This document shows, piece after piece, positions 19,495 to 62,801 of a DNA stretch of 63,742 nt; within the stretch, counting starts at the first letter, position 1, and every line of letters starts with the position of its first letter. Location of the stretch: assembly GCA_000717735.1 (NCBI GenBank), contig JOBE01000046.1, positions 1 to 63,742 on the forward strand. The letters are read 5' to 3'. The stretch comes from Streptomyces griseoluteus (GTDB lineage Bacteria > Actinomycetota > Actinomycetes > Streptomycetales > Streptomycetaceae). A program made the position numbers and the translations under genes. The notes beneath the pieces are model-generated. The model was not told the origin of the DNA, made no database searches, and saw only the letters and a list, made by a program, of their open reading frames with translations.

Positions 19495-21111
19495 TCACAT
19501 TCGGAAGACGCCGAAGCCGCCGCGCGCGCCCTCGACCGGTGCCGTGTGGATCGCGGAGAGGCACAGCCCGAGGACCGTGCGGGTGTCGCGGGGGTCGATG
19601 ACCCCGTCGTCGTAGAGCCGTCCGGAGAGGAACATCGGCAGGGACTCCGACTCGATCTGCGCCTCGACGAGGGCGCGGAGCCCTGCGTCGGCCTCGGCAG
19701 CCTTGTCGTCGTACGGCTGCCCCTTGGCGACGGCGCTCGCCCGCGCCACGATCGACAGGACCCCGGCCAGTTGCTGCGGGCCCATGACGGCGGACTTGGC
19801 GCTCGGCCAGGCGAAGAGGAAGCGCGGGTCGTACGCCCGGCCGCACATGCCGTAGTGCCCGGCGCCGTAGCTCGCCCCCATGAGGACGGACAGGTGGGGG
19901 ACGCGCGAGTTCGACACCGCGTTGATCATCATGGCGCCGTGCTTGATGATGCCGCTCTGCTCGTACTCCTTGCCGACCATGTAGCCGGTGGTGTTGTGGA
20001 GGAAGAGGAGGGGGACGTCCCGCTGGTTGGCGAGCTGGATGAACTGCGCCGCCTTCTGCGACTCCGGGCCGAAGAGCACGCCCTGCGCGTTGGCGAGGAC
20101 ACCGACGGGGTAGCCGTGCAGGCTCGCCCACCCGGTCACCAGGCTGGGCCCGTACAGCGGCTTGAACTCGTCGAAGTCGGAACCGTCGACGATCCGGGCG
20201 ATCACCTCGCGCGGGTCGAACGGGGTCTTGAGGTCGCCGGGCACGATCCCGAGGAGTTCGTCCTCGTCGTACATCGGGGGCTCTCCCGTGAGCGGATCGG
20301 GATGCGCCTTGCGGTGGTTCAGACGGGCCACGATCCGGCGGGCCTGGCGGATCGCGTCCGTCTCGTCGACGGCGTAGTGGTCGGCGAGCCCCGACGTCCT
20401 CGCGTGCATCTCGGCACCGCCGAGGGACTCGTCGTCGCTCTCCTCCCCCGTCGCCATCTTCACCAGCGGCGGACCGCCCAGGAAGACCTTCGACCGCTCC
20501 TTGATCATGACGGCGTGGTCGGACATGCCGGGGACGTACGCCCCGCCGGCCGTCGAGTTCCCGAAGACGACGGCGACGGTCGGGATGCCGGCCGCCGACA
20601 GACGCGTCAGGTCGCGGAAGAGCGCCCCGCCGGGGATGAAGATCTCCTTCTGGGAGGGGAGATCGGCGCCGCCGGACTCGACGAGCGAGATGACGGGCAG
20701 CCGGTTGGCGAACGCGATCTCGTTGGCCCGCAGCGCCTTCTTCAGCGTCCACGGGTTGGAGGCGCCCCCGCGCACGGTCGGGTCGTTGGCGGTGATCAGG
20801 CACTCGACGCCCTCGACGACCCCGATCCCGGTGACCAGGGACGCGCCCACTGTGTACTCGGGGGAGGCGCTGCCCCAGGCGGCGAGCGGCGACAGTTCGA
20901 GGAACGGCGAATCCGGGTCGACGAGCAGCTCGATCCGCTCGCGGGCGAGCAGCTTGCCGCGCGCCCGGTGCCGGGCCGTGTACTTCTCGCCGCCGCCCGC
21001 GAGCGCCTTGGCGTGCTCGGCGTCGAGGGCGGCCAGCTTGTCGAGCATGGCGGCGCGGTGGGCCCGGTAGTCGGGTCCGCCGGTGTCGAGGGCGGAGGCG
21101 AGGACGGTCAC
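19495..21111 (-). CDS. Acyl-CoA carboxylase beta subunit (carboxyltransferase, MCC/GCC/PCC family)
   Basis: 538 residues, the carboxyltransferase N and C halves of the PccB/MccB family (VESGGADLPSQ, FGNSTAGGAYVPGMSDH, FLHNTTGYMVGKEYE, GASYGAGHYGMCGRAYDPRF). It moves CO2 from biotin to an acyl-CoA. The overall look is MccB/AtuC-like, but the segment between SGGADLP and AGGAYVP is shorter than in methylcrotonyl-CoA carboxylases and lacks their FGRIFYNQ stretch, so the acyl substrate is open. GTG 21111 follows GGGGGGAT. Ten bp separate it from the alpha subunit. Confidence 0.9.
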   Translation of the reverse strand: MTVLASALDTGGPDYRAHRAAMLDKLAALDAEHAKALAGGGEKYTARHRARGKLLARERIELLVDPDSPFLELSPLAAWGSASPEYTVGASLVTGIGVVEGVECLITANDPTVRGGASNPWTLKKALRANEIAFANRLPVISLVESGGADLPSQKEIFIPGGALFRDLTRLSAAGIPTVAVVFGNSTAGGAYVPGMSDHAVMIKERSKVFLGGPPLVKMATGEESDDESLGGAEMHARTSGLADHYAVDETDAIRQARRIVARLNHRKAHPDPLTGEPPMYDEDELLGIVPGDLKTPFDPREVIARIVDGSDFDEFKPLYGPSLVTGWASLHGYPVGVLANAQGVLFGPESQKAAQFIQLANQRDVPLLFLHNTTGYMVGKEYEQSGIIKHGAMMINAVSNSRVPHLSVLMGASYGAGHYGMCGRAYDPRFLFAWPSAKSAVMGPQQLAGVLSIVARASAVAKGQPYDDKAAEADAGLRALVEAQIESESLPMFLSGRLYDDGVIDPRDTRTVLGLCLSAIHTAPVEGARGGFGVFRM

Positions 21112-21145
21112 GGGCGATCCCCCCGTACGGCTTTCGGTGCGACGG

Positions 21146-22837
21146 TCACAGGAGTCCCTCCGGGATGTCGATGTGGCGCGAGCGGAGCCACTCGCCGAGC
21201 GCCTTGGCCTGGGGGTCGAACCGGGCCTGCGAGGCGACGCCCTCGCCGAGGATTCCGGCGACGGTGAAGTTGAGCGCGCGCAGACGCGGCAGGACGTGCC
21301 GGGTGACGGTCAGGCCGGCGGTCTCCGGGAGGAGCTCCTTGAACGTGCCGACGGTGAGGGCGTGGGCGAGCCAGCGCCACTCCTCCTCCGTGCGGACCCA
21401 CACGCCGACGTTGGCGTCGCCGCCCTTGTCGCCGCTGCGGGCCCCGGCGATCCGGCCGAGCGGAACACGCCGGACCGGCCCGTACGGGAGCGGCTCGGGA
21501 AGATCCGGGCTGGGTACGGGTGCCAGGTCGAGGGTCCGTGGCGGTACGGGGACGGGGACGCGGGTCCCGTCGGGGAGCACGGCCGTGTGCGGGACCTCGG
21601 CGGCCGGTACGGACGCGGTGTCGAAGACGCCGTAGGGGGCGCCCCTGCCGGGTGGGGCGGTGACGTGGAAGCCGGGGTAGCTCGCGAGGGCCAGCTCGAT
21701 CGCGGCCCCCGTCAGGGTGCGGCCGACCTTCTCGGGGTCCTGGTCCCGGACGACGAGCCGGAGCAGGGCGCTCGCGGTCTCCTCGGTGCCGGCGTCGGGC
21801 CTGTCGGTCCGCACAAGCTCCCACCGCACCTCGCCGGGGCGGGACTTCACGAGCGCGTCCTCGACCTGGTCCCGCACCAGCCGGGCCTTCGCCTCGACGT
21901 CGAGACCCGTGAGGACGAACACCACCTCGTTGCGGAAGCCGCCGAGCCTGCTGCGCCCGACCTTGAGCGTCGGGGGTGGCGCCTCGCCCCGTACGCCGTC
22001 GATCCGGACCCGGTCGGGGCCCTCCTGGGTGAGCCGGGCGGTGTCGAGGCGGGCGGTCACGTCCGGGCCGGGGTAGCGGGCGCCGGCCGTCTCGTAGAGG
22101 AGCTGCGCCGTGACCGTGCCGACGTCGACGAGGCCGCCGGTCCCGGGGTGCTTGGTGATGACCGCGCTGCCGTCCGCGTGCAGCTCGGCGACCGGGAAGC
22201 CGGGGCGGCGCAGGACCTCCGGGTCGTGCTCGCGGAAGAAGGCGTAGTTGCCGCCGGTGGCCTGGGTGCCGCACTCCAGGACGTGCCCGGCGACGACCGC
22301 GCCGGCAAGCCTGTCGTACTCCTCGGGCCCCCAGCCGAAGTGCCACTGCGCGGGCCCGGTGACGAGCGCGGCGTCGGTGACGCGGCCGGTGACGACGACA
22401 TCGGCTCCGGCGGAGAGACAGGCGGCGATGCCGGCGCCGCCGAGATAGGCGTTGGCGGTGAGCGCGCCGCCCGTGGCGGGCAGCCGGTCGCCCTCCACGT
22501 ACCCGATCCGGGTCGGCAGGCCGAGCTTCGCGGCGAGGGCGCGCAGGGCGTCGGCGAGCCCGGCGGGGTTGAGGCCGCCCGCGTTGGCGACGATCCTGAC
22601 CCCGCGCTCGTGGGCGAGGCCGAGGCCCTCCTCCATCTGGCGCAGGAACGTCTTCGCGTACCCGGCCTTCGGGTCCTTCAGCTGGTCGCGGCCGAGGATG
22701 AGCATGGTCAGCTCGGCGAGGTAGTCGCCGGTGAGGACGTCGAGTCCACCGCCGGGCCCGCCGCCGGTGAGCATCTCGCGGACGGCGTCGAAGCGGTCGC
22801 CGTAGAAACCGGAGGCGTTGCCGATACGGAGGACCAC
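21146..22837 (-). CDS. AtuA-family protein (DUF1446)
   Basis: 563 residues. An N-terminal AtuA domain (RIGNASGFYGDRFDA start, RIVANAGGLNPAGLADAL, VVTGRVTDAALV, ECGTQATGGNYAF) and a C-terminal AtuA-like ferredoxin-fold domain of about 100 residues (RIAGARSGDKGGDANVGVWV). AtuA is essential for citronellol/geraniol catabolism in Pseudomonas, but its reaction is not established. GTG 22837 shares its G with the TAG stop of the upstream gene, and GGAGGGG precedes it, indicating tight coupling. It sits directly before the carboxylase genes, as in atu clusters. Confidence 0.88.
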   Translation of the reverse strand: MVLRIGNASGFYGDRFDAVREMLTGGGPGGGLDVLTGDYLAELTMLILGRDQLKDPKAGYAKTFLRQMEEGLGLAHERGVRIVANAGGLNPAGLADALRALAAKLGLPTRIGYVEGDRLPATGGALTANAYLGGAGIAACLSAGADVVVTGRVTDAALVTGPAQWHFGWGPEEYDRLAGAVVAGHVLECGTQATGGNYAFFREHDPEVLRRPGFPVAELHADGSAVITKHPGTGGLVDVGTVTAQLLYETAGARYPGPDVTARLDTARLTQEGPDRVRIDGVRGEAPPPTLKVGRSRLGGFRNEVVFVLTGLDVEAKARLVRDQVEDALVKSRPGEVRWELVRTDRPDAGTEETASALLRLVVRDQDPEKVGRTLTGAAIELALASYPGFHVTAPPGRGAPYGVFDTASVPAAEVPHTAVLPDGTRVPVPVPPRTLDLAPVPSPDLPEPLPYGPVRRVPLGRIAGARSGDKGGDANVGVWVRTEEEWRWLAHALTVGTFKELLPETAGLTVTRHVLPRLRALNFTVAGILGEGVASQARFDPQAKALGEWLRSRHIDIPEGLL

Positions 22838-58460: not shown

Positions 58461-58611
58461 CGGAGGTGCTTCCGATGCTGGTGGGGAGAGTGCTTCACCT
58501 CCGGCGCGAGGGCCTTCGGAGTGCCTCGGCCGGGGCTCCTGAGGCGGTCCGAAGGGGCCTTCCCCGCCGCGCCACGGTTCGTCCGGCGTGCCGGTGGGGC
58601 ACTATGACGGA

Positions 58612-59991: not shown

Positions 59992-60010
59992 GGCCCTCTC
60001 GTGTGGATCG

Positions 60011-60027
60011 GGTACGGGATCCGTACC
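60011..60027 (+). terminator. Short inverted repeat after the MFS gene
   Basis: GGTACGG-GAT-CCGTACC, 20 bp past the stop; a second stem CACGCCG/CGGCGTG follows by 60056. Confidence 0.5.
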
Positions 60028-60088
60028 GGAAGGCGGCACGCCGTACCCCGGCGTGGCGCGGGCGCGGCGGCCCGATAGCCTTCGGCTC

Positions 60089-60568
60089 ATGACCGTTGCG
60101 TTCTTCTCCGGCTCGGGCCGCCGGGCCGCCGTCGCCCTCGGGGCCGTCTCCGCCGGGCTCCTCGTTCTCTCCGCCTGCGACAAGCCGACTCCGCTCGCGA
60201 CCGTGACGGTCGGGACCGACTCGATCCACTCCGAGGCCGCCTGCTACAACGACGGCGACGCCATCAAGGAGTCGCAGATCCAGCAGTGCCTCAACAAGAA
60301 GGCCGAAAAGTCCATCACCGTCGCGATGGACGACAAGATCCGCTTCGGGGTCGACCCCGAGATCGCGGACAACGGCTGGACGATCTTCCTCGGCGGCCAG
60401 CAGGCCGAGCCCGAGCCGTACAAGAAGACGTACCGGACCATTCCGGCCAGCGCCTTCTTCTCCAGCCAGAGCGGCGAGGCCACCGACAAGACCCAGGTGA
60501 CCATCGTCGAGAACACCGGCAAGAAGCTGACCGGCGTCTGGCACTTCCAGCTGAAGAAGGAATCCTGA
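60089..60568 (+). CDS. DUF2771 lipoprotein
   Basis: 159 residues. A lipoprotein signal with lipobox LSAC (GLLVLSACDKP), two further Cys (SEAACYND, IQQCLNK) that may pair, and a beta-rich domain ending TGVWHFQLKKES. DUF2771; role unknown. Leaderless: TAGCCT (60076-60081) ends 7 nt before ATG 60089. mqnB starts 8 bp after its stop, so it is probably the first gene of the mqnB-mqnD transcript. Confidence 0.85.
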   Translation: MTVAFFSGSGRRAAVALGAVSAGLLVLSACDKPTPLATVTVGTDSIHSEAACYNDGDAIKESQIQQCLNKKAEKSITVAMDDKIRFGVDPEIADNGWTIFLGGQQAEPEPYKKTYRTIPASAFFSSQSGEATDKTQVTIVENTGKKLTGVWHFQLKKES

Positions 60569-60575
60569 TCCTCCG

Positions 60576-61337
60576 GTGCTCCACCGGATCCTGATCGTGA
60601 CGGCCGTGGCGGCGGAGGCGGACTCCGTCTCCACCGGCCTCGGCCCAGGCGGCCAGGAGCTCGTCCCACTGCCGGGCGGCTTCGTCCTGCGCCGCCACAC
60701 GGACGGGACCGCGCCGACCGCTCGCGTCGACGTGCTCGTCGGCGGGGTCGGCCCCGCGGCCGTCGCCGCCGCGACGGGGACGGCACTCGCGTACGCCTCA
60801 CTGGCGAAAGCGGGCGCCGACGCCCCCTACGACCTGATCGTCTCCGCCGGGATCGCCGGCGGATTCGTCCCCCTCGCGCCGATCGGGTCGATCGTCGTCT
60901 CGGCGTCCGTCGTCGCCGCCGACCTCGGCGCCCAGACCCCCGACGGCTACCTCACCGTCGAGGAACTCGGCTTCGGCCGGTCCGCGCACCCGGTGCCGGA
61001 GGCCCTGACCGGCCGTATCGCCGCCGCCCTCGCCGCCGGGGGCCGGGCGCACACCGTCGGGCCCGTCCTCACCGTCTCGACCGTCACCGGCACCGCCGGA
61101 CGCGCCGCCGAACTCGCGGCACGCCATCCCGGAGCCGCCGCCGAGGCGATGGAGGGCTTCGGCGTCGCCGAGGCCGCCGCCGCGTACGGGGTCCCCGTCG
61201 TCGAGGTCCGCGCCGTGTCGAACGCCGTCGGCCCCCGCGACCGCGCCGCCTGGCGCATCGGCGAGGCCCTGGAATCGCTCGGGCGGGCCTTCGGACTGCT
61301 CGGCAAGACCGTCTTCGTGGACCTTGACCCGTCGTGA
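60576..61337 (+). CDS. mqnB: Futalosine hydrolase
   Basis: 253 residues. It splits futalosine to hypoxanthine and dehypoxanthine futalosine in the futalosine menaquinone pathway. Nucleoside-phosphorylase fold: ILIVTAVAAEADSV, VDVLVGGVGPAAVAAAT, LIVSAGIAGGFVPLAPIGSIVV and AEAMEGFGVAEAAAAYGVPVVEVRAVSN with the AMEG purine-site motif. GTG 60576 lacks a close ribosome site. The TGA stop overlaps the first of four tandem GTG starts (61334). Confidence 0.93.
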   Translation: MLHRILIVTAVAAEADSVSTGLGPGGQELVPLPGGFVLRRHTDGTAPTARVDVLVGGVGPAAVAAATGTALAYASLAKAGADAPYDLIVSAGIAGGFVPLAPIGSIVVSASVVAADLGAQTPDGYLTVEELGFGRSAHPVPEALTGRIAAALAAGGRAHTVGPVLTVSTVTGTAGRAAELAARHPGAAAEAMEGFGVAEAAAAYGVPVVEVRAVSNAVGPRDRAAWRIGEALESLGRAFGLLGKTVFVDLDPS

Positions 61338-61425
61338 CCGAGCCGGACGGGGAGTCGTCGTGACCAAGCCGGACGTGGACCCGTCGTGACCAAGCTGGAG
61401 CTGGAGCCGTCGTGACCAAGCTGAA
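61331..61425 (+). repeat. 26-bp tandem repeat carrying three coupled mini-ORFs before mqnD
   Basis: GTCGTGACC recurs at exact 26-bp steps, giving GTG starts at 61334, 61360, 61386 and 61412. The first overlaps the mqnB stop (GTGA). Each of the first three opens a 9-codon ORF (MTEPDGESS, MTKPDVDPS, MTKLELEPS), and each ends in a TGA overlapping the next GTG; the fourth GTG is mqnD (MTKLKIAYS). Purine-rich GGGGAG or GGAG stretches lie 5 nt before the second and fourth starts. Confidence 0.92.
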
Positions 61426-62266
61426 GATCGCCTACTCGCCCTGTCCGAACGACACCTTCGTCTTCGACGCCTGGGCCCACGGGCGCGTCCCCGGCGCGCC
61501 CCGGCTCGACGTGACCTTCGCCGACATCGACGTCACCAACGGCTGGGCGGAGGGCGGTGACGACGACCACGACGTCCTCAAGGTGTCGTACGCCGTGCTG
61601 CCGTGGATCCTCGACGAGTACGCGCTGCTGCCCTGCGGCGGCGCCCTGGGCCGTGGCTGCGGGCCGCTGGTCCTGACCCGGGAGGCAGGGAGCGGTGCCG
61701 ATCTCGCCGGGAAGACGGTCGCGGTGCCGAGCGAGCGGTCCACCGCGTACCTGCTGTTCCGGCTGTGGGCGGCCGAGAGCGTGCCGGGCGGGGTCGGGAA
61801 CGTCGTCGTGATGCCGTTCCACGAGATCATGCCCGCCGTGCGCGACGGGAAGGTCGACGCGGGGCTCGTCATCCACGAGGCCCGCTTCACATACCGGAAC
61901 TACGACCTGCACTGCCTCGCCGACATGGGCGAGCACTGGGAGGCCACGACGGGACTGCCGATCCCGCTCGGCGCGATCGTCGCCCGCCGCTCGCTGGGCG
62001 CCGAGACGCTTGAGCGGCTCGCCGAGGCCGCCCGCGCCTCGGTGCGGATGGCCTGGGACGACCCTGCGGCCTCCCGCCCGTACGTTCTGGAGCACGCGCA
62101 GGAGATGGACCCGAAGGTGGCCGACCAGCACATCGGCCTCTACGTCAACGAGTTCACGGCCGACCTCGGCGAGCACGGCTACGCGGCGGTCCGCGGGCTG
62201 CTCACGCGCGCCGCGGCCGAGGGACTCGTACCGCCCCTCGGCCCGGACGCGCTGTCGTTCCCCTGA
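61412..62266 (+). CDS. mqnD: 1,4-dihydroxy-6-naphthoate synthase
   Basis: 284 residues. It converts cyclic dehypoxanthine futalosine to 1,4-dihydroxy-6-naphthoate. Periplasmic-binding-like fold: IAYSPCPNDTFVFDAWAHGR, VLKVSYAVLPWILDEYALLPCGGALGRGCGPL, KTVAVPSERSTAYLLFRLW, GLVIHEARFTYRNY. The catalytic His is probably in VIHEARF. It starts at the fourth GTG of the tandem array, and its translation is likely coupled through the mini-ORF chain. Convergent with the cold-shock gene at 10 bp. Confidence 0.95.
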   Translation: MTKLKIAYSPCPNDTFVFDAWAHGRVPGAPRLDVTFADIDVTNGWAEGGDDDHDVLKVSYAVLPWILDEYALLPCGGALGRGCGPLVLTREAGSGADLAGKTVAVPSERSTAYLLFRLWAAESVPGGVGNVVVMPFHEIMPAVRDGKVDAGLVIHEARFTYRNYDLHCLADMGEHWEATTGLPIPLGAIVARRSLGAETLERLAEAARASVRMAWDDPAASRPYVLEHAQEMDPKVADQHIGLYVNEFTADLGEHGYAAVRGLLTRAAAEGLVPPLGPDALSFP

Positions 62267-62276
62267 GCTGCCTGGA

Positions 62277-62660
62277 CTACACGTCGAGCTGGTCGGCGAC
62301 CGCCCGCAGCAGGCCGGCGATCTTCGCGCCCTGGGTCTTCTCCGGGTAGCGGCCCCGCTCCAGGGCCGGCGTGATGTTCTCCAGGAGCGTCGTCAGGTCC
62401 TGGACGATGGACGCCAGTTCGTCGGGCTTACGGCGCTGGGCCGCGGCGACGGACGGCGTCGGGTCGAGGATCGTGACGGTGAGCGCCTGGTCGCCGCGCT
62501 GACCGGCGACGACCCCGAACTCGACCCGCTGCCCCGGCTTCAGTGCGTCGACTCCGGCAGGGAGCACCGACGAGTGGACGAAGACGTCGCCGCCGTCGTC
62601 ACGGGAGAGAAAGCCGAAGCCCTTCTCGGGGTTGAACCATTTGACCTTGCCGGTAGGCAC
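62277..62660 (-). CDS. Cold-shock-domain protein with C-terminal extension
   Basis: 127 residues. The CSD (MPTGKVKWFNPEKGFGFLSRDDGGDVFVHSSVL, residues 1-67) has the RNP1 KGFGFL and RNP2 VFVH motifs. An extra 60-residue helical tail (ASIVQDLTTLLENITPALE...GLLRAVADQLDV) is typical of the longer streptomycete CspB-like proteins. It binds single-stranded RNA/DNA. GTG 62660 has AGGA 5 nt before it. Confidence 0.92.
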   Translation of the reverse strand: MPTGKVKWFNPEKGFGFLSRDDGGDVFVHSSVLPAGVDALKPGQRVEFGVVAGQRGDQALTVTILDPTPSVAAAQRRKPDELASIVQDLTTLLENITPALERGRYPEKTQGAKIAGLLRAVADQLDV

Positions 62661-62801
62661 GTCTGTCCTCGTCCTCGTACTCGTCGTCGGGTATGGCGAA
62701 CAGCGGGTTTACCGACCCGCCGGCACCAAGGCTAATGGCCCGGAGGCCGGTGACAAGACGGTGCCGGTGTGTTCCTGTGGCCTGGGAACTACCCTGGCGG
62801 G

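Follow-up and report, generated by a model that had tools for sequence, protein, structure and literature searches.

A serial array of stop/start-overlapping mini-ORFs made from the mqnB-mqnD junction in Streptomyces griseoluteus

Introduction

Gene pairs that overlap at an NTGA tetramer (-4 nt spacing) are known to be translated by termination-reinitiation. In H. volcanii and E. coli, reinitiation drops steeply with distance, and a separation of about 20 nt almost abolishes it; at +38 nt two E. coli pairs lost 80-90% of it and a third pair lost it altogether, while the last 15 nt of the upstream gene sufficed for coupling (excerpts of PMC10666635). In Haloferax, six of the cases in which the Shine-Dalgarno motif was lost showed 20-80% less reinitiation, and one showed more (PMC6728339). 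A review cites studies in which spacings from -4 to +25 nt were without effect and in which coupling was kept at +62 nt in phage f1 (PMC12548453).

The same review describes the short delivery ORF, or bicistronic design, in which a short ORF brings ribosomes to a coupled gene (PMC12548453). It also describes the mycobacterial MIRU, which are apparently mobile and hold an ORF coupled by a -4 nt spacing, so that their insertion hardly disturbs a gene (PMC12548453). In the senX3-regX3 spacer, MIRU stand in tandem with periods of 77 and 53 bp, and this spacer is said also to drive senX3-independent expression (excerpts of PMC4213456).

The array described here lies between two menaquinone biosynthesis genes in a stretch of 63,742 nt from Streptomyces griseoluteus (contig JOBE01000046.1), which is called the window below. 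Like the systems above it contains -4 nt overlaps, and it is built from the two genes that flank it.

The array between mqnB and mqnD

The features of the locus are as follows, with every GTG start read as Met in the peptides.

60576..61337, + strand: mqnB, futalosine hydrolase; two futalosine-hydrolase equivalog models score above cut-off, and its TGA overlaps the GTG at 61334
61318..61423, + strand: 26-bp tandem array; the longer of its two possible registers holds 4.1 copies
61334..61363, + strand: mini-ORF 1, MTEPDGESS and stop; GTG with weak Shine-Dalgarno pairing (-3.0 kcal/mol)
61360..61389, + strand: mini-ORF 2, MTKPDVDPS and stop; GGGGAG 5' of the start (-8.4 kcal/mol)
61386..61415, + strand: mini-ORF 3, MTKLELEPS and stop; its 26-bp unit is identical to the single extra unit of S. 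exfoliatus, with weak Shine-Dalgarno pairing (-3.7 kcal/mol)
61398..61423, + strand: mqnD-proximal junction copy, identical at 26/26 positions to the unduplicated junction of close relatives; GGAG 5 nt before GTG (-7.0 kcal/mol)
61412..62266, + strand: mqnD, menaquinone biosynthesis; Pfam PF02621 VitK2_biosynth, 244 bits, with its GTG start inside the fourth GTGA

The gene at 61412-62266 has no NCBIfam match, and by exact name we take it to be mqnD. Four GTGA tetramers, at 61334-61337, 61360-61363, 61386-61389 and 61412-61415, are spaced by exactly 26 bp, and between mqnB and mqnD they delimit three ORFs of 9 codons, the TGA of each overlapping the GTG that follows. The distance from the mqnB stop to the mqnD start is 74 nt. 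An initial annotation of this DNA had proposed such a chain of three stop/start-coupled mini-ORFs, and direct reading of 61334-61415 confirms it. The exact 26-bp intervals between starts hold as well, and the fourth GTG is the start of mqnD, since all 80 MqnD homologues align from query residue 1-4.

Tandem Repeats Finder detected the array independently (period 26, 3.6 copies, 86% matches). Three GTGA at 26-bp spacing occur at this site only in the 8.10-Mb host genome, as two overlapping matches that both lie here. With up to 3 mismatches allowed, one middle unit has a single match in the window, and 100 shuffles gave none. The bare 26-bp GTGA spacing pattern is not rare in the genus: at least one match is found in 265 of 392 same-genus genomes, and many of these matches are other tandem repeats.

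Origin of the array

Searches with MqnD gave 110 loci and a search with the junction gave 30, the window and some genomes being repeated among them. The 26-mer GAGCTGGAGCCGTCGTGACCAAGCTG is the plain single junction in the close relatives L003, L033, L035, L119, L120 and L121. In S. exfoliatus NRRL B-2924 (L031), GAGCTGGAGCCGTCGTGACCAAGCTG stands twice in tandem; the mqnD-proximal copy matches at 26/26 positions and the mqnB-proximal copy carries three substitutions. In the window, the copy beside mqnD is again 26/26 identical to the unduplicated junction, and the three upstream copies match it at 21, 21 and 23 of 26 positions. Close relatives thus have 0 extra units, S. exfoliatus has 1 and this genome has 3, and each mini-ORF joins the opening codons of mqnD to the closing codons of mqnB.

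As judged from these copies, the units arose by local tandem duplication of an ancestral 4-nt GTGA overlap, and we infer the order of events. The first copy of the window has all three S. exfoliatus substitutions and the copy at 61386 has two of them, which suggests that a later duplication probably followed that drift. The comparison of junction copy number across related Streptomyces, which the initial annotation had recommended, thereby bears out the origin that it had proposed, and its 26-bp tandem duplication is real, with the refinement that the units are diverged copies and not identical ones. The two-junction unit pattern, with at most one mismatch, had no match in the 392 same-genus genomes, a sample that did not contain the host genome (G000) or a positive control. 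The S. exfoliatus junction, with its one unit, leaves the mqnD frame open as far upstream as a TTG that precedes the mqnB stop by 11 nt, so an extended MqnD is possible in this species and a different overlap could operate there.

For a copy of period p with a 4-nt overlap, the following stop is in frame only if p = 2 mod 3. Because 26 = 2 mod 3, each added unit is an ORF of mqnD head and mqnB tail, opened by a GTG that overlaps the previous TGA. Placements of a single duplication spanning the GTGA of an unduplicated junction were enumerated for periods of 6-60. With periods of 2 mod 3 a relay, that is, an unbroken chain of overlapping stops and starts through mini-ORFs, was formed in 529 of 549 placements; with periods of 1 mod 3 coupling was kept in 0 of 531; and with periods of 0 mod 3 the product was an N-terminally extended MqnD in 551 of 570. 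The earlier proposal that each 26-bp unit brings its own stop and start, keeping the coupling arrangement, is supported by this enumeration, solely since 26 = 2 mod 3. The senX3-regX3 MIRU periods of 77 and 53 are, by our own arithmetic, also 2 mod 3. Other Streptomyces (L128, L130, L085, L086, L094 and L100) have, as the relay's counterpart with a period of 0 mod 3, repetitive in-frame extensions of the MqnD N-terminus at the mqnB-mqnD junction.

Tandem repeats span 61 gene stops in the G015 and G031 stretches (L173-L292) and the window. When the next gene is on the same strand, their periods are 2 mod 3 in 12 cases, 0 in 11 and 1 in 9, and on these counts a period bias to 2 mod 3 was rejected as proof of selection. 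For stops not followed by a same-strand gene, the corresponding counts are 16, 10 and 3, an unevenness for which coupling gives no reason.

Relays at other junctions in the genus

Relays were surveyed in 2.0 Mb of G015, in 0.4 Mb of G031 and in the window, with a simple, unbenchmarked codon-usage gene caller of our own. Of 818 same-strand pairs whose genes lie 9-250 nt apart, 153 have an NTGA stop; relays were counted in 36 of the 818, where mononucleotide shuffling of the spacers leads one to expect 27.9. A gap range of -4 to 250 gave 43 relays in 1181 pairs. The proposition that any mini-ORF chain is special was rejected on these numbers. Single mini-ORF chains between Streptomyces genes are largely due to chance, and only the tandem architecture is special. 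Three survey relays are built of tandem junction copies: the one at mqnB-mqnD and two in G015, of which one has five 38/39-bp units and the other, between an ABC ATPase and a permease gene (names read from sequence), has two 35-bp units. G015 has two more repeat chains, of 17 bp and 28 bp, that are not in the gene caller's list; after the 17-bp chain the next called gene is on the opposite strand.

Among 126 conserved adjacent pairs compared between G015 and G031 or the window, 21 have NTGA in both and 3 have a relay in both. Another 5 have NTGA in one and a gap without relay in the other (2, 4, 10, 10 and 148 nt), one has a relay versus NTGA, and one a relay versus a short gap. This comparison is too small for a test, and it does not favour relays as the only tolerated change. 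Among 30 loci with the 26-bp GTGA pattern (L143-L172), L146 alone has a relay where the pattern lies and coding signal to either side of it; chains that end at starts within mqnD were set aside.

A second relay lies in the window itself.

21108..21149, - strand: one 13-codon mini-ORF (MTVAPKAVRGDRP and stop), with 38 bp between its two GTGA
21146-22837, - strand: AtuA-like gene, flanking this relay
19495-21111, - strand: acyl-CoA-carboxylase-like gene, flanking this relay

The two gene names were read from the sequence and are presumptive. This junction is a plain -4 overlap in 27 of 30 loci, the window included in the 30; the other three, in the window, G015 and G002, are relays. In G015 (L305) the orthologous junction holds the array of five 38/39-bp units, in which the 39-bp unit shifts the frame, giving four mini-ORFs, one of which spans two units. 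In G002 (L319) the relay has 20 codons.

In G236 (L146/L323), four mini-ORFs of 26, 29, 26 and 26 bp lead from a moeA-like gene to a TrkA-N/ion-channel (K+ channel) gene, and the later ones consist of channel head and MoeA tail. Of 27 scored loci with this pair, 23 have direct junctions, 3 have relays and 1 has a plain gap; three of the 30 loci were unscored, L333 having no downstream match and L337 and L339 having the genes on opposite strands. The direct junctions lie inside the palindrome GTTTCACGTGAAAC, presumably a ParB-binding parS site, and all three relays (L146/L323, L325 and L351) carry extra or diverged copies of it. It may therefore be extra binding sites, and not coupling, that drive the moeA-like/K+ channel arrays.

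These two junctions were followed because relays were present in them, the discovery cases being L293, L305 and L323. A figure of 6/7 that counts the discovery cases was set aside. When they are left out, relays are found in 3 of 4 spacer-bearing loci (L319, L325 and L351, and not L324). The baseline is 23.5% when the spacers counted are those that follow an NTGA stop, and 4.4% when all are counted; by hand calculation, P is about 0.04 with the stricter baseline.

A single 23-bp mini-ORF unit (GTGAACGCC repeated) was also seen at position 534 of L045 and in L140. It separates an MFS-like gene from a putative lipoprotein gene, and this pair appears homologous to the genes at 58588 and 60053 in the window.

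Possible translation through the array

We lean slightly towards the reading that ribosomes use the relay, with leakage. Ribosomes that finish mqnB would restart at 61334 and traverse the three 9-codon ORFs by repeated termination-reinitiation up to mqnD, with some loss per step and probable top-up initiation at the Shine-Dalgarno-like sites preceding 61360 and 61412. The added units leave both proteins unaltered and the chain of 4-nt overlaps unbroken, and the mini-ORF peptides would be by-products. The changed MqnB:MqnD ratio that the initial annotation had raised stays hypothetical. The array is probably tolerated, not selected, because such a junction duplication spares both the coupling and the two proteins. 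The array is real and well explained in its origin, and the relay is plausible in its mechanism.

Nearly all mqnB-mqnD junctions overlap, which speaks for relay use. In 119 of 127 distinct scored junctions an in-frame mqnD start lies at or before the mqnB stop (44 NTGA and 75 other overlaps), and the others comprise 3 relays, of which that in L043 is probably due to chance, and 5 gaps without a relay. For this tally L088 and L133 were dropped, identical junctions were collapsed and the window was counted; other collapsing and gap rules give 125 junctions, with 116 overlapping, 6 gaps and 3 relays. Coupling is not indispensable, as indicated by the five gap junctions without a relay and by the five changes between NTGA and a gap without a relay in the paired genomes. 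In L043, L049 and L075 the two genes stand about 50 nt apart; the spacer has a GC-rich inverted repeat, mqnD is preceded by a GAGGAGG-like site, and the arrangement looks decoupled.

The published distances bear on this reading in both directions. ORFs of 9 codons would in principle be long enough, given that coupling needs no more than the final 15 nt of the upstream gene (PMC10666635), and the Haloferax cases indicate that reinitiation does not always depend on a Shine-Dalgarno motif (excerpts of PMC6728339). The argument that 74 nt is too far to cross without the relay is disputed in the literature, and the studies consulted concerned organisms other than Streptomyces.

It is quite possible, if somewhat doubtful, that the duplication is neutral and the relay unused. 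In that case most initiation at mqnD would come from free 30S subunits, which would use its own GGAG-5 nt-GTG, or else from ribosomes that cross the 74 nt and bypass the mini-ORFs, while the upstream copies drift; the longer-gap coupling in some of the work reviewed (PMC12548453) is consistent with such a crossing. Shine-Dalgarno pairing at the starts 61334, 61360, 61386 and 61412 is -3.0, -8.4, -3.7 and -7.0 kcal/mol, against a background with a median of -2.7, a 20% point of -5.4 and a 5% point of -8.6 kcal/mol. A Shine-Dalgarno-like site thus persists ahead of mqnD but has been lost at 61334 and 61386, as one would expect if mqnD started independently. In both duplicated genomes the last GTG has retained its GGAG, and the mqnB-proximal copy no longer has one. 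Independent initiation of mqnD is possible because GGAG survives there but not before two upstream starts. The divergence of all three upstream copies beside an unchanged last one fits neutral drift too. The local RNA is less folded than shuffled sequences (z +1.84; 196 of 200 shuffles fold at least as well). This counts in favour of relay use, and such low structure would also expose the mqnD start site.

Against an unused relay stand the four GTGA and three frames, which are all intact. However, in a drift simulation the relay stayed intact after 8-10 random substitutions with a probability of 0.23-0.15, so its survival does not prove selection; selection on the relay was put aside as a conclusion, the simulation being unable to exclude neutrality. 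Evidence from other junctions also argues against disuse. At the AtuA-like/carboxylase junction, all 3 spacer-bearing loci among the 30 are relays (two of the three being discovery cases), and the six starts of the G015 array all keep strong Shine-Dalgarno pairing, from -8.8 to -10.3.

It is very improbable that the mini-ORFs owe their retention to functional micro-peptides or to a role as an attenuator-like regulatory leader. Three short ORFs of equal length would suit such a function, and nothing further does; the peptides are accounted for as head-tail by-products, and the mini-ORFs are absent from most relatives. The micro-peptides suggested by the initial annotation find no support, as no peptide conservation is visible among the mini-ORFs: all 8 differences between neighbouring ones change the amino acid, and just 3 of 8 fall at third positions. 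A micro-peptide function was rejected on this absent codon-position signature. An RNA element was likewise rejected, with no Rfam match at the gathering threshold in 60000-62700, no terminator-like or sigma-70-promoter-like site in 61150-61550, and a region less folded than its shuffles. An assembly or sequencing artefact of a single junction, which the initial annotation itself had cautioned against and which a host assembly of 190 contigs might suggest, is scarcely credible, since the copies differ at up to 5/26 positions and the independent genome of S. exfoliatus NRRL B-2924 has one unit.

Implications

The enumeration amounts to a rule: if a piece that spans an NTGA junction is duplicated in tandem and the period is 2 mod 3, both proteins and the chain of overlaps are nearly always left intact. 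Relays suggest how spacers can enter coupled operons without breaking them. They also offer natural test objects: among close species the mqnB-mqnD junction carries 0, 1 or 3 relay units, and a G015 junction carries five units of 38/39 bp. Such a copy-number series would let the loss of reinitiation per step be measured, a figure relevant to the disputed choice between local reinitiation and long scanning. A much broader proposal, which we regard as unlikely, is that coupled Streptomyces junctions are recurrent hot spots of junction-derived 2 mod 3 arrays, several per genome, forming copy-number-variable relays that act as a protein-neutral dial for the output ratio of neighbouring genes.

Comparison with known systems

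Each of the four junctions of the array is a GTGA overlap, as in the NTGA (-4 nt) termination-reinitiation pairs (PMC10666635 and PMC6728339, in part). Unlike the usual pair, which has one overlap, the array has four in series, with three mini-ORFs between the genes. Among the matches listed from the open-access literature searched, no title or beginning of an abstract described junction-derived tandem relays.

With the bicistronic design the array has in common a short ORF and stop/start overlaps, and its Shine-Dalgarno-like pairing is better at 61360 and 61412 and weak at 61334 and 61386. The engineered design sits at the 5' end of an mRNA; the mqnB-mqnD relay is natural, in series and placed after a full-length gene.

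The MIRU resemble the array in being tandem units between cistrons, each of which holds an ORF with -4 nt overlaps at its ends, and in having a tandem copy number that differs between relatives (here 0, 1 and 3 among species). MIRU units are not known to be made of their flanking genes. In contrast, the mqnB-mqnD unit is made from its two flanking genes, mqnD head and mqnB tail, and is not inserted from elsewhere. Nor, as far as searched, does it belong to a dispersed family: the triple GTGA at 26 bp is confined to this site in G000, the unit occurs once in the window (up to 3 mismatches), and the two-junction unit pattern (up to 1 mismatch) has no match in 392 same-genus genomes other than G000. 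The nearest precedent among the systems seen in these sources thus appears to be the mycobacterial MIRU, alike in layout, while the array of S. griseoluteus is, as far as searched, home-made from its flanks and not a member of a dispersed family.
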